From NCBI GenBank assembly GCA_016871195.1, contig VFZN01000003.1:127902-191901 (forward strand): a stretch of DNA of 64,000 nt, given 5' to 3'. Below are positions 32,672 through 54,398 of the stretch, piece by piece (the stretch's first letter is position 1; the number at the start of each line of letters is the position of its first letter). The translations under genes were made by a program, and so were the position numbers. This DNA is from Acidobacteriota bacterium. Its GTDB lineage: Bacteria; Acidobacteriota; Vicinamibacteria; Vicinamibacterales; UBA2999. The notes under the pieces are model-generated. The model ran no database searches. It was not told where the DNA came from and saw only the letters and a list, made by a program, of their open reading frames with translations.

Positions 32672-33244
32672 TTACCTATAGAACTCAGAATATCCCAACA
32701 CCCACCGGCATACCAGCGCCACGGGGAGCCCGACGATGGTGGTGTATGAACCGGCAATACCCTCGATGTGGCGAGCCATGGCCCCCTGAATCCCGTAGGC
32801 CCCTGCCTTGTCACGCCACTCGCCCGTCGCCAGATAGGCCGCGATGTCGTCGGCGGTCATGGGCTGCATGGTCACCAGCGCCCGTTCGACGGCGACCTGC
32901 GGCGGTGCCTGCGGGCCGAGCAGGGCCACCCCTGTCAGCACTTCGTGGACACGCCCCTGCAACTGCTGCAGCATCCGCCCAGCCTCGGCCGCGTCTGCCG
33001 GCTTTCCGAGAATTTTTCCATCAACGACCACCGTTGTGTCGGCGCCGAGCACCGGGCGCGTGTCCCCCGGGCGGGTGATGGCCACGACCCGGGCCTTCTC
33101 CTCGGCCAGTCGAGTGACATACGTGGCGGGAGGCTCTCCCGGCAGCGGCGCTTCGTCGATGGGCAGCGTGCAGACCTCAAACGGAATGCCGGCCGCTGTC
33201 AGCAACTGGGCACGACGCGGAGAGGCCGAGGCCAGAATCACCAT
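32672..33244 (-). CDS. maf: Maf family nucleotide pyrophosphatase
   Basis: A 190-residue Maf/YhdE protein that hydrolyses non-canonical or pyrimidine nucleoside triphosphates. Signatures are LASASPRRAQLL at the N-terminus, VLGADTTVVVDG, LGKPADAAEAGRML, the E-W-R-D-K-A-G-A-Y-G-I-Q-G block and a closing GSYTTIVGLPV. A minus-strand TAGCAT ends 7 bases before its ATG. It is probably cotranscribed with ccmE, an unusual pairing. Confidence 0.93.
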   Translation of the reverse strand: MVILASASPRRAQLLTAAGIPFEVCTLPIDEAPLPGEPPATYVTRLAEEKARVVAITRPGDTRPVLGADTTVVVDGKILGKPADAAEAGRMLQQLQGRVHEVLTGVALLGPQAPPQVAVERALVTMQPMTADDIAAYLATGEWRDKAGAYGIQGAMARHIEGIAGSYTTIVGLPVALVCRWVLGYSEFYR

Positions 33245-33251
33245 CCTTACG

Positions 33252-33261
33252 ATGCTATCCT
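33252..33261. promoter_or_regulatory. Overlapping divergent -10 elements
   Basis: Minus-strand TAGCAT (33257-33252) ends 7 bases before the maf ATG. Plus-strand TATCCT (33256-33261) ends 6 bases before the dciA-like ATG at 33268. The whole intergenic gap is 23 bases, so both transcripts would be leaderless or nearly so. Confidence 0.5.
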
Positions 33262-33267
33262 CAGTCG

Positions 33268-33552
33268 ATGGTTCCCGCCCACCGCGTGCTTCCGGGCCTG
33301 ATTGCGTCGCTCGTCCGACCGGCGCCGCTCTGCGACGAAAAGGTGAGCTTTGCGTGGCGCACCTCCGTCGGCACGGCCATGGCGCGCGCCACCCGGGCGC
33401 GGCTGCGTCCGGATGGCCTTCTACAGGTGACAGCCGACACGCCTGCCTGGACGCGCGAGGTGGAACGATCGCTCGGACTCATCCGGTCGCGGCTCGAGGC
33501 GTTTCTCGGGCCCGACGTCATACAGCGTGTGGAGATTCATCATCATGACTGA
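33268..33552 (+). CDS. DciA-like (DUF721) protein
   Basis: A 94-residue protein matching the DUF721/DciA pattern: an N-terminal helix, [15 protein letters not shown], then [23 protein letters not shown] and [15 protein letters not shown] at the end. In many bacteria that lack DnaC/DnaI, DciA loads or stimulates the replicative helicase DnaB. Start ATG at 33268 lies 6 bases after TATCCT. Its last 8 bases overlap the thiolase start, so the two genes are coupled. Confidence 0.72.
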
Positions 33553-48922: not shown

Positions 48923-50419
48923 CTATTCGGGAGGAAGCGCGCGGAAGTGCGCGTCGAGATCGACCCCCGAGGCCTGCAGGGCCCGGACTTCGCGCCAGTA
49001 GATGAGCGTGCCGAGCGCCATCACTACCAGCCACACCGGCGTCGATCGGAAGTACCACGCCTCCACCGGCGCTGTCAGGTCCTTGACGGTGTGCACCATG
49101 AGGAAGTCCGACAGCACGACCATGCCGCCCACTGCGATGATGCGCTGGGCCCCGTGCGACGGGAACACACGCACCTCTCGCGCCAGCGCGGGGTTGCGGG
49201 TGGGCAGCCACCACACCGAGGCCGCCATCACGAGAAAGTTGACGAGCATCGAGGTCACGAGAATATCGACGCCGAGGAAGAAATCGCCGGCGAGATGACT
49301 GCCGAGCACACCCAGCGTGGCCATACCCCCGCTGGCGATGATGGCGATGTGCGGCGTGCGGAACCGCGGATGCACGGCCGCCACCTGTCGGGGAAAGATA
49401 CCGTCCTCGGCCCACGCAAACATCAGTCGGGACACGGCCAGCAGCATCGCCGGCAGGTCCTTCGCCAGGGCTACGGCGGCCGCTGACACAATCACCACCG
49501 TCCAGAAGGGCGGCAGCAGATAGCCCAGCAGCCCAGGCGCGGTCAGATCGCGTTGCTGGGCCTGCTCGGCCACATACCACCACGGCACGGCGTGATACAC
49601 CGCCGCCGTGAACAGCATGTAGAACACGCCCACCGACCCGACGGCGATACCAATGGCCAGAGGCAGATTGCGCGCCGGATTCCTGGCCTCGCCACCCGCT
49701 TGCGCGATCGAGTCGAATCCGATGAACGAGGCGAACAGCAGTGCGGCCGCAGACAGGAACGTCGAGGGCGAGCCCGTCGGCGCAGGGGCGGGCGGCAGCA
49801 TCACACCGTCGCGTGCCAGCAGTGCCGCGGCAAATTCCTCATGCGAAAACCAGAAGCCGGCGACGATGACCACGCCGCCGAGGAGGAAGGTGAGGAACAT
49901 CAGGGGCACGATCAGCCGCTCGTACAGCTTCACGCCTCGAAGGTTGATCGCCACGGCCGACCACAGCACGGCCAGGGAGATGGACAACCGGACGGGGCCG
50001 CGCTCGAGGACGGCCGCCATCTCACTCCACGCAAGCGCCACGGCGATGTCGCGCAGAAACGGCACCAGCACATACGAGACCACACCAATGGCGACGCAGA
50101 GCGAAAACCACTGCGAAAACGACGCGACAAAGCCGAGATACGCATTGAGCCCCCGGCTTGCGTACACATAGCTTCCGCCAGCTCGCGGCATGGCCGAGGC
50201 GAGCACGGCATAGGCCAGCCCGGCGAGCACGGCCGGCAGTGCCGCGAACACATAGGCCCCAAGCACGTCGCTGCCAATGCCCGGCACGTTGCGCTGGATC
50301 ATGAAGGGAATGACACTGATGCCGGCCCCCACCATCGAGCACACGCCGGTGGCGGTGAGGCCCAGCAGGCCCATCTCGCGGGCCAGTCGGGGACGGCGCT
50401 CTGCGGTCTCGTGGGCCAT
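48923..50419 (-). CDS. APC-family amino acid/polyamine permease
   Basis: A 498-residue transporter with about twelve helices. The first unwound helix reads GVCSMVGAGISVIPF, with SAMPRAGGSYVYASRGLN after helix 2 and FIGFDSIAQAGGEARNPARNLPLAI after helix 6, all APC landmarks. It probably takes up an amino acid or related amine. It lies between the DUF885 gene (2-base gap) and the AKR-RidA fusion in a single minus-strand set, which suggests uptake and processing of peptide- or amine-derived compounds. Confidence 0.9.
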   Translation of the reverse strand: MAHETAERRPRLAREMGLLGLTATGVCSMVGAGISVIPFMIQRNVPGIGSDVLGAYVFAALPAVLAGLAYAVLASAMPRAGGSYVYASRGLNAYLGFVASFSQWFSLCVAIGVVSYVLVPFLRDIAVALAWSEMAAVLERGPVRLSISLAVLWSAVAINLRGVKLYERLIVPLMFLTFLLGGVVIVAGFWFSHEEFAAALLARDGVMLPPAPAPTGSPSTFLSAAALLFASFIGFDSIAQAGGEARNPARNLPLAIGIAVGSVGVFYMLFTAAVYHAVPWWYVAEQAQQRDLTAPGLLGYLLPPFWTVVIVSAAAVALAKDLPAMLLAVSRLMFAWAEDGIFPRQVAAVHPRFRTPHIAIIASGGMATLGVLGSHLAGDFFLGVDILVTSMLVNFLVMAASVWWLPTRNPALAREVRVFPSHGAQRIIAVGGMVVLSDFLMVHTVKDLTAPVEAWYFRSTPVWLVVMALGTLIYWREVRALQASGVDLDAHFRALPPE

Positions 50420-50421
50420 GG

Positions 50422-52107
50422 TTACTTCAGTCCATCAAGACGGCGAAGTTCCGAGTCGTCGCCGAGCCATTCCCACCGCAGCAGCGACAGGGGCACGTTT
50501 CCGTTCTTCCAGAGATAGTCGTGAAACGCCTGCAGCGAGAACGCATCCCCGCGTGCGCGACGCGCGTCTGCCAGCATCCGCACGATCTGCACCTTTCCGA
50601 TCTGGTAGGTGATGGCCTGCCCTGGCCCGGCGGCAAACGATGCGGCTTCCTCGAGTGCCGTTTCGCGATCCATCGGCACGGTCTTTTCGAGATAGTCGGC
50701 GGCCTGCGGAATGCTGAACTCCCCCGTTGCCAGCCGCACGTCGACTTCCACGCGCAGCGCACGCAGGCGCATGAAGTTGTAGATGATCTCGCGCGAGCGC
50801 GGACTGTCGGCCCACAGGCCGGCCTGCAGCATCATCTCCTCGGCATAGAAGCCGATCCCTTCGTTCGCGCCCGAGTCGTAATAGCGGCGACGGATGGCAT
50901 TCTCGTGCGCCCACGACAGGGCGAGTTGAAAGTAGTGGCCGGGCACGCCTTCATGCACGATGATCGGCCGGGGATCGCGCGCCGTCGACAGGTAAAAGTA
51001 CGGCAGCGTCGGTGCCGGCGCGCGAATGTAGCTGATGCCGTCTTCCGTCAGCCGCGAGGGCCCGGTCAGGTCATCGGTGACCCCGAGAAACGACAACGGG
51101 GCCAGATAGGCTGGCAGCGGAAGATTGCGGTAGTGCTTCACCCACGCCGGCACGGTCAGCAGCCGCTCGCGTTCGAGAAACGACCGGATGCCCTGCTCAT
51201 CGGCGAACGACTTGCTGATCTGGGCCTGTTGGTCGGGAAAGATCGGCATCGGCGGCAGGGCACGGTTGCGGCCCTGCTCGAGGGCCTCGAACGCCACGGC
51301 GCGCTCCCACTCCATGCGCCCCATCATGAGAAGTTCCTCGGGCGTGTAGGGCACCAGGGCCACCTCACGCAGGAACCACACATAGTCAGCGCGCCCGATG
51401 GCCGTCTCGGCCTTCAGCGAGGGTTCACGCGACGCCAGCCACTGCCGGTAGGCGGCCAGCGCTCGGCCTGCCGTCGCCGCTGCGTCGCCGATGGATTCGC
51501 GCGACCCGGGGGCCAGTTGTGGAGCCAGTTCGCGCGCCATCGTGCCGAGGCGTGCCTCGATATCACCGAGCGTGTCGATGGCGAGGCGCGCAAAGGGCCG
51601 ACGCATGTCGGTCAGGTGTCCCTGTGCGTGCGTCAGCACGACCGGCGCATGACGCAACCGCTGCACGATGGCCTCGGACCGCGCCCGATCAAACGGGGCC
51701 GGCGGGAGCAGCAGGTCGAACGTGGGTCCCAGTGCCTGCTGAATGAAAAACGCCGGGTCGCGGCGCCACGCGGCCGCCTTCTCGAGCTCCCAGCGCACCC
51801 GTGCGATCGCCGAACCCATGAGGCGATAGTCGACCTGCCGCGAGACGGGCATGCCCTGCATCGACAGCCCGCGCCACCGCGTCTCGAAGGCACTCAGGGC
51901 CTCCTGCCGCCGCGTCATCGACTCGGGCGACCAGTCGGGCAACCACCCTGCCGGACGTTCGACCCGGGGAATGTCATCCCCGGTCGAAGGCTGGTGGATC
52001 ACCCGCCATGTCCAGAAATCAGCGGCCAGATCATCAAACGGATCCGCAGCCGACGGACGGGCCGCGGAACAGACAAGCAGCAGCGCGAGGAAGACGGAAC
52101 GCAGCAT
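50422..52107 (-). CDS. DUF885 family hydrolase
   Basis: A 561-residue secreted protein (signal peptide ends SAADPF) of the DUF885 family, which resembles zinc carboxypeptidases. The metal-binding motif is HEGVPGHYFQ (about residue 384), followed by GANEGIGFYAEEMMLQAG with a Glu ligand. ATG at 52107 is chosen because it begins the signal peptide and TATAAT lies 9 bases upstream. A peptidase role is inferred, and the divergent S9 peptidase next door supports peptide turnover. Confidence 0.85.
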   Translation of the reverse strand: MLRSVFLALLLVCSAARPSAADPFDDLAADFWTWRVIHQPSTGDDIPRVERPAGWLPDWSPESMTRRQEALSAFETRWRGLSMQGMPVSRQVDYRLMGSAIARVRWELEKAAAWRRDPAFFIQQALGPTFDLLLPPAPFDRARSEAIVQRLRHAPVVLTHAQGHLTDMRRPFARLAIDTLGDIEARLGTMARELAPQLAPGSRESIGDAAATAGRALAAYRQWLASREPSLKAETAIGRADYVWFLREVALVPYTPEELLMMGRMEWERAVAFEALEQGRNRALPPMPIFPDQQAQISKSFADEQGIRSFLERERLLTVPAWVKHYRNLPLPAYLAPLSFLGVTDDLTGPSRLTEDGISYIRAPAPTLPYFYLSTARDPRPIIVHEGVPGHYFQLALSWAHENAIRRRYYDSGANEGIGFYAEEMMLQAGLWADSPRSREIIYNFMRLRALRVEVDVRLATGEFSIPQAADYLEKTVPMDRETALEEAASFAAGPGQAITYQIGKVQIVRMLADARRARGDAFSLQAFHDYLWKNGNVPLSLLRWEWLGDDSELRRLDGLK

Positions 52108-52116
52108 GGCAGGCCG

Positions 52117-52124
52117 ATTATAGT
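52117..52124. promoter_or_regulatory. Overlapping divergent -10 elements (TATAAT / TATAGT)
   Basis: ATTATAGT gives TATAAT on the minus strand (52122-52117) and TATAGT on the plus strand (52119-52124), overlapping by four bases. Each ends exactly 9 bases before its start codon (52107 and 52134) in a 26-base gap. The clearest case of a bidirectional leaderless promoter in the window. Confidence 0.65.
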
Positions 52125-52133
52125 ACTGCCCGT

Positions 52134-54398
52134 ATGCCACGACTCTTCTCCGCCCTGCTGGTATGCGTCTGCGTGCTTGGCCTGGCTCCCCGCGCAACCG
52201 CCCAGCGCGCTGCGCCTGCGCCGCTGTCGGCTGAGCAGATTGCGTCGTATCCCAGCCTCATCGGCACGGCGCCCGCGTCGCCCACGTGGTCACGCAACGG
52301 GCAATGGCTGGCCTTCCGCTGGAATGAGGAAGGCTGGCCGTTCCGCGACCTCTATCTCGTCGGCGCCGACGGGCGGAATCGTCGTCGCCTCACGAATCTG
52401 CAGCAGACCCACCCGGCACCGCCCCCTCCCTCGGGCACGTCGACCGCGGCGCTGGCGGCGCAGTCGGCCGCCCGTGCCCGCGGCGGCATCAGCGAGCTGC
52501 TGTGGCTGCCCGATCATCAGTCGCTGCTCTTCACCGCGAGTGGCCGCCTCTTCAGGGTCACGCTCGATGGCCGCGCCCCGGAGGTGCTGCCCGCCGGCGA
52601 GGGACTGTCGGACATCGCCCTCTCTCCCGATGGCAGCCGGGTGTCGTACCTCAAGGATAGCGACCTGTGGGTCTGGCCTCTCGCAGGCGGTGTGCCAGAA
52701 CGACTGACGACGGTGGGCGTCGCAGGCCCTGGCACCGTGCCACTCGGGTCCTACAACCGGCCCGATGCCGAAGTGGGCACGGGCGTGTGGGGCGCCGACT
52801 GGATGCCCTATCAGTGGGCGCCTGACGGCCGCACCATCGCGCTGCACATGGTTGACCGGCGTCATCTGAGGCAGGTGCGCTTTCCGTGGTTTCTTGGGGG
52901 AGACACCGGTCCGAACATCCTCCGCCGCGGCTATCCCGGCGACGAGAACGAACGCCGCACACTGGCCGTGCTCGACGTCGCCAGCAAGCGCCTGCAGCCG
53001 CTGACGCTGCCGGCCCCGGGTGCACGCGCCATCAGCGACTATGAGTGGTCGGCGACCGGGCGCCTCATGGTCGACCAGGTCAGCGACACCGGCGCCGAGC
53101 GCTGGTTCTGGGTGCTCGAACCGAACACGCTGAGCCCGCGCGAGGTCTGGCACGACCAGCGCGATACGCGCATCTATCCCGCGTATGTCTCACGGTGGCA
53201 CCCTGATGGCCGCCGCATCATCTTCGTCGCCGATCTCTCGGAGCGCGATCATCTTTTCAGCCTCGAGGTCGATCGGCCCGGTGCGACACCGCAGCCGCTC
53301 ACGTCCGGCGACTGGGATGTGGCCGGCGAACGCGGTGCGGCCCCCCTCTCGGTGGGCACTGACGGCACCCTGACATTCACGTCGACACAGGTCAGCCCCT
53401 ACGACCGTCAGGTATATCAGCTCACCCGCAGCACCGGCAGCCCGGTGGCCCTCACCTCGCGCCCGGGGGTGCACGTGCCGTTCATCTCCCCCGACGGCCG
53501 TCACGTCGCCACGCTGTGGTCAGACGACATCACGCCGACAGAGTTGCTCATTCGCCCCGTCACGGCCGGTGCCCCCGACGTGCGCGTCACGCAGTCGCCC
53601 CGTGCCGCCTTTGCCGGCTACGACTGGGTCCGTCCCCGCTACGACACCTTCCGGAATGCCGTGGATGGCTTCGTGGTGCACGCCCGCATCCTCGAGCCCT
53701 CGAACCTCGACCGCAGCCGCCGATACCCTGTCATCTTCGGTCCACTCTACTCGAACACCGTACGCAACCGATGGGCCGGTCTCTCAGGCACCCTCCAGCA
53801 GGCCATGGTTCAGCGCGGCTTCATCGTCGTGCAGGTGGATGTGAGGGGCAGCGTCGGCTACGGCCGGGCGTTCCGGGAAGCCTTCCTGATGGATTACGGC
53901 GGCAAGGACCTTGACGACATCGAGGCCGTGGTGCGTGGACTCGCGCAGCGCCCGTATGTCGATGCTTCGCGGATGGGCATCTGGGGCAGCAGTTACGGTG
54001 GCCTGCTGACCGTGTTCACGCTGCTCAAGAAGCCCGGTCTGTTTTCGGCGGGCGTGGCCGGTGCGCCGGCCACCGACCCGTTCGCCTTCGGCCCTGACGA
54101 TGTGGCCATTACGCGGACTCCGGCGTCGCATCCTGAGGCGTTCGTGCGGGGCTCGGCGCAGCACCTCGGCGAAAATCTGCGAGACCACCTGCTGATCATC
54201 CACGGGGTGATGGATGACGTGGTCCCCTTCCGCACGACGATGACGCTGATTGAGCGGTTGATTCTGCTGGGGAAGGACGTCGACCTCGCGACGGCACCAG
54301 CGGCCACGCACGGGTGGACAGCCCGTGAGCCCTACGCGATCTTCTTTTATCGGAAGCTGCTGAACTACTTCGACCAGCACCTGGGCCCGCCGCGCTGA
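52134..54398 (+). CDS. S9-family prolyl oligopeptidase/DPP-like serine peptidase
   Basis: A 754-residue secreted peptidase. Signal peptide ends RATAQ; a seven-bladed propeller with repeated WAPDG, WHPDGRRIIF-like blades covers about 40-480. The alpha/beta hydrolase domain has the nucleophile Ser620 in GIWGSSYGG, the acid Asp in HGVMDDVVPF and the catalytic His in AATHGW. It cleaves short peptides, probably in the periplasm. ATG at 52134 follows TATAGT by 9 bases. The DUF885 gene is divergently paired. Confidence 0.93.
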   Translation: MPRLFSALLVCVCVLGLAPRATAQRAAPAPLSAEQIASYPSLIGTAPASPTWSRNGQWLAFRWNEEGWPFRDLYLVGADGRNRRRLTNLQQTHPAPPPPSGTSTAALAAQSAARARGGISELLWLPDHQSLLFTASGRLFRVTLDGRAPEVLPAGEGLSDIALSPDGSRVSYLKDSDLWVWPLAGGVPERLTTVGVAGPGTVPLGSYNRPDAEVGTGVWGADWMPYQWAPDGRTIALHMVDRRHLRQVRFPWFLGGDTGPNILRRGYPGDENERRTLAVLDVASKRLQPLTLPAPGARAISDYEWSATGRLMVDQVSDTGAERWFWVLEPNTLSPREVWHDQRDTRIYPAYVSRWHPDGRRIIFVADLSERDHLFSLEVDRPGATPQPLTSGDWDVAGERGAAPLSVGTDGTLTFTSTQVSPYDRQVYQLTRSTGSPVALTSRPGVHVPFISPDGRHVATLWSDDITPTELLIRPVTAGAPDVRVTQSPRAAFAGYDWVRPRYDTFRNAVDGFVVHARILEPSNLDRSRRYPVIFGPLYSNTVRNRWAGLSGTLQQAMVQRGFIVVQVDVRGSVGYGRAFREAFLMDYGGKDLDDIEAVVRGLAQRPYVDASRMGIWGSSYGGLLTVFTLLKKPGLFSAGVAGAPATDPFAFGPDDVAITRTPASHPEAFVRGSAQHLGENLRDHLLIIHGVMDDVVPFRTTMTLIERLILLGKDVDLATAPAATHGWTAREPYAIFFYRKLLNYFDQHLGPPR

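Follow-up and report, generated by a model that had tools for sequence, protein, structure and literature searches.

The 26-bp gap between two divergent peptidase genes in this Acidobacteriota genome probably serves as a minimal bidirectional sigma-70-type promoter, from which both mRNAs would be leaderless or nearly so. Its two -10 boxes are interlocked on opposite strands, and this architecture recurs in the genome. Promoters built on -10 symmetry and leaderless genes are each already established; their combination as a minimal, repeated promoter of divergent gene pairs appears, with good computational support, to be a real and modestly novel variant, although not a unique one.

The gap and the two peptidase genes

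The window, that is, the whole 64,000-nucleotide stretch analysed, contains the following features at and around the gap:

48923..50419, minus strand: putative amino-acid permease-like gene, assigned from its open reading frame, directly downstream of the DUF885 gene
50422..52107, minus strand: DUF885 gene, 561 aa, with an HEGVPGH motif (Pfam PF05960, E 1e-50)
52107..52134, no strand: whole predicted bidirectional promoter, 26 bp from start codon to start codon
52117..52122, minus strand: -10 box TATAAT of the DUF885 gene, read on the complement, spacer 9
52119..52124, plus strand: -10 box TATAGT of the S9 peptidase gene, spacer 9
52120..52125, minus strand: alternative -10 box TACTAT, spacer 12
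52134..54398, plus strand: S9 (DPP-IV-like) peptidase gene, 754 aa (PF00326, E 5e-42; PF00930, E 3.8e-25)

Direct reading of the 26 bp between the start codons gives GGCAGGCCG ATTATAGT ACTGCCCGT, flanked by CAGCAT on the left and ATGCC on the right. The minus-strand start codon (CAT on the forward strand) lies at 52105-52107 and the plus-strand ATG at 52134-52136. The shared 8-base element ATTATAGT occupies 52117-52124 and is separated from the start codons by 9 nt on the minus side (52108-52116) and 9 nt on the plus side (52125-52133), with TATA common to the two overlapping opposite-strand elements; each gene has the TANNNT motif that leaderless (TA-led) genes carry about 12 bp before the start codon. 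The first-pass annotation, which had described two -10 boxes interlocked in 26 bases and each 9 bases from a start codon, was exact in these coordinates. Combining TATAGT with the alternative minus box TACTAT, which the first-pass annotation does not mention, instead yields the symmetric TATAGTA. None of the Shine-Dalgarno 4-mers GGAG, AGGA, and GAGG was read in the 20 nt upstream of either gene, and neither box is accompanied by a recognisable -35 element or TG extension. A tRNA was the sole Rfam match in the window, with no riboswitch or leader.

Both start codons are credible, since both proteins open with signal-peptide-like N-termini (MLRSVFLALLLVCSAARPSAA and MPRLFSALLVCVCVLGLAPRATAQ) and match the DUF885 and Peptidase_S9/DPPIV_N families in Pfam. 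Solved structures related to the DUF885 protein include 3o0y, 3u24, and 3iuk, and those related to the S9 peptidase are of DPP-IV. The S9 peptidase encoded on a public contig labelled Acidimicrobiia (VFZG01000088.1; L099) shares 73% identity with that of the window; this contig resembles one from the Acidobacteriota family of the window (G032:C88), and its organism label may be wrong.

Predicted leaderless starts and interlocked boxes across the genome

The genome was sampled as 2.05 Mb in stretches, with starts taken from a crude home-made gene caller. In 1.25 Mb, 154 of 1588 candidate ATG starts were preceded by TANNNT at a spacer of 6-9 nt, the rate being 1.7-3.3% at each of spacers 6, 7, 8, and 9, compared with about 0.5% for most of the remaining positions and, for internal ATGs, about 0.1% at each position. 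The commonest spacers are 6-7, so that the spacer of 9 used by both peptidase genes falls in the tail of the peak. When the 341 candidate starts with a box at leaderless distance in the full 2.05 Mb were aligned on that box, the -10 element favoured TANAAT and no -35 signal was seen. Shine-Dalgarno 4-mers are also enriched before candidate starts (1.25 Mb), indicating, to the extent that sequence can show it, that leaderless and Shine-Dalgarno modes coexist in this genome. Leaderless genes were predicted earlier in all three Acidobacteria genomes surveyed, at a mean of 13.3% (PMC3160421).

Among 267 divergent pairs, 43 carry boxes at spacers 6-9 for both genes, and in 13 of these 43 the boxes overlap. 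Control spacings (mutually overlapping four-spacer windows whose first spacer ranged from 10 to 35) gave 0-6 pairs with both boxes and 0-2 with overlapping ones. The prevailing offsets are 4, at which the boxes share TA (nine pairs), and 2, at which they share TATA (three pairs, including the 52105-52136 locus). Because shared bases make a second box cheap, the count was also made conditional: of 15 pairs that already had one box and a suitably spaced opposite start, 9 carried the final T that completes a shared-TA box, against an expected proportion of 0.166 (p ~2e-4). A reversed-motif, gene-aware control (26 pairs) was discarded, because genuine -10 boxes can match TNNNAT as well.

A fourteenth interlocked pair, which the gene caller missed because one of its genes is short, lies within the window itself at 33242-33270, its boxes sharing TA:

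33244, minus strand: ATG of the Maf gene, box TAGCAT, spacer 7
33268, plus strand: ATG of the DciA gene, box TATCCT, spacer 6

The rarity implied by the first-pass annotation is thus contradicted by 13 interlocked pairs among 267, with Maf/DciA in addition, and the idea of a unique or rare one-off was rejected, the architecture recurring both in the genome and in the window.

Orthologous loci and layouts in related genomes

Eight orthologous loci were found in metagenome-assembled genomes of Acidobacteria/Vicinamibacterales, and their boxes were read directly, locus by locus, because MAFFT misaligned the intergenic regions. The left gene retains a box at leaderless distance at 8/8 loci (TATACT, TACACT, or TAGACT; spacer 7 or 9), and the S9 gene does so at 7/8 (TATAGT, TATCGT, or TACTAT; spacer 6-9), with drifting spacing:

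L092: DUF885/S9 divergent pair; left box TATACT, spacer 9; no plus-strand box at a leaderless position
L094-L097: DUF885/S9 divergent pairs; left box TACACT or TAGACT, spacer 7; right box TATAGT or TATCGT, spacer 8-9; boxes 38-83 bp apart
L093, L105, L110: DUF885 absent; permease at the left box TATACT, spacer 9; S9 box TACTAT, spacer 6-7; offset 13

At the last three loci, the permease orthologues (75% identity) begin at the usual position and box of DUF885, as if the DUF885 gene had been cleanly taken out from behind the promoter or inserted there. The occurrence of the S9 gene opposite the DUF885/permease operon in several genera suggests a common role in peptide use, while the co-regulation of the two peptidases put forward in the first-pass annotation is hypothetical. 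At the DUF885/S9 locus, the interlock is specific to the genome of the window: none of the relatives found has it, and their boxes lie 13-83 bp apart. The simplest account would be that the divergent region was longer in the ancestor, with a separate leaderless -10 element already present for each gene, and became shorter in this lineage.

This genome has a single instance of the strict layout CAT-N9-ANTATANT-N9-ATG, and the backwards control has none. Across 193 genomes of the class, the strict layout with 9-base spacers was found in four, as compared with one in the backwards control, the sites in the other three genomes all adjoining one related gene (GDH); in one of these (L156), the ATG opposite GDH opens just 14 codons. 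With 7-base spacers, the strict layout was found in 12 of 193 genomes versus two in the backwards control. Among these strict-layout sites, three divergent pairs, named by sequence reading, were each found in two genomes, namely TyrS/phosphoesterase (G000 and G001), lyase/acylase (G005 and G151), and GDH/mutase (G102 and G106). Looser, pattern-only scans of the family, covering offset 4 and the symmetric 18-bp layout, hardly exceeded control (12 versus 10 sites and 11 versus 7) and were set aside. Elsewhere, the stretch between two divergent long open reading frames contains a perfect palindrome of 28 bp, CATGGGAGGGATTATAATCCCTCCCATG (L160, 1501-1528); its perfection would give both frames identical promoters and starts.

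Predicted mechanism, alternatives, and known systems

From this layout, we infer that a sigma-70-type RNA polymerase would read the shared -10 region either way, as TATAAT leftwards and TATAGT rightwards, with no -35 element needed for initiation at ATTATAGT. With a distance of 7 bp from -10 to +1, the start sites are predicted near 52110 on the minus strand and near 52131 on the plus strand, a separation of 21 bp, or of 18 bp if the alternative TACTAT is used. The leaders would be about 3 nt long before each ATG, or zero if initiation shifts to the A, leaving no room for a ribosome-binding site, and both mRNAs would be translated without a Shine-Dalgarno site. The upstream contacts of each promoter would fall in the first codons of the opposite gene, at little cost if no -35 element is needed. 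Promoter activity may be low, given the lack of a recognisable -35 element or TG extension at either box. The bidirectional, leaderless character proposed in the first-pass annotation is supported by the TANNNT peak before starts, the boxes of the orthologues, and the literature on -10 symmetry and on Acidobacteria, and it stands as a prediction.

That the 8-mer is an AT-rich chance match between close divergent starts, with neither gene transcribed from it, is highly improbable: although the looser interlock patterns are about as frequent in backwards controls, a chance match would not explain the genome-wide peak at 6-9 nt, the conditional excess of the shared-TA second box, the strict-layout counts (12 versus 2 and 4 versus 1), or the leaderless-distance boxes of the orthologues. 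A reading in which only one box functions is unlikely; the second match would then be a side effect of TATAAT being nearly symmetric, and its gene would have a promoter inside the neighbouring gene. TATA-containing sites are partly self-complementary, one-sided cases exist (the L156 layout by GDH, with its 14-codon opposite frame), and the S9 gene of L092 has no box in the leaderless position; against this, the relatives keep non-overlapping boxes (S9 at 7/8 loci, the left gene at 8/8), which cannot be by-products of one another.

The further possibility that the promoter is a switch, with polymerases competing so that the two peptidases are expressed in opposition, is rather improbable. Two polymerases cannot both occupy overlapping -10 boxes, and the earlier statement that transcription can proceed in only one direction at a time is sterically right. 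In E. coli, moreover, the activated direction can repress the other; such repression, however, was seen only with substantial activation of one side, and at all five bidirectional promoters tested, basal traffic was too low for more than negligible competition (PMC12825309), so that no regulatory effect can be assumed here. In addition, the gene pair persists in the relatives although its boxes are separate there, indicating that exclusion is not a conserved requirement.

The bidirectional reading places the gap close to known systems. Symmetry of the -10 element drives divergent transcription in E. coli (Warman, Grainger and colleagues), with start sites most commonly separated by 18 bp and separations of 10 and 23 also common (PMC12825309, PMC10268837). 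As in those promoters, opposite-strand -10 elements overlap here and a -35 element would not be essential. The separation predicted here is 21 bp for the main pair of boxes and 18 bp with TACTAT as the minus box; unlike in those promoters, both transcripts are predicted to be leaderless and to come from neighbouring genes. TANNNT near the start and the lack of a Shine-Dalgarno site are shared with leaderless TA-led genes (PMC3160421; Deinococcus-Thermus, PMC12340547), but those studies treat single genes rather than a divergent pair. On three plasmids of Deinococcus deserti (1.03 Mb in total), leaderless boxes are plain, but of 105 divergent pairs only 7 have both boxes and none has them interlocked. 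The difference from the present genome is modest (p 0.02, plasmids only), and having leaderless genes may not be enough to produce the arrangement. In Mycobacterium tuberculosis, closely juxtaposed divergent promoters occur, with prpD/Rv1129c resembling the present pair as divergent neighbours with leaderless transcripts, but no shared -10 element is described in the accessible part of that source (PMC3898074). A literature search that fell short of most subscription sources turned up no account of a repeated class in which interlocked -10 boxes serve two leaderless genes.

It is quite possible, although we propose this tentatively, that minimal bidirectional leaderless promoters form a recurrent class in Vicinamibacteria, used as a fixed coupling of divergent genes, with -10 elements sharing TA or TATA, an intergenic region of about 22-26 bp from start to start, and a geometry differing from the commonest one in E. 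coli. For annotators, start codons 22-26 bp apart around a TATA-type core are probably real. The locus also provides a precise test case for whether polymerase competition at a shared -10 element would couple two genes in the absence of leaders or a -35 element. Overall, the arrangement joins -10 symmetry and leaderless mRNA in what looks like nearly the smallest possible promoter for divergent genes, repeated within one little-studied phylum.
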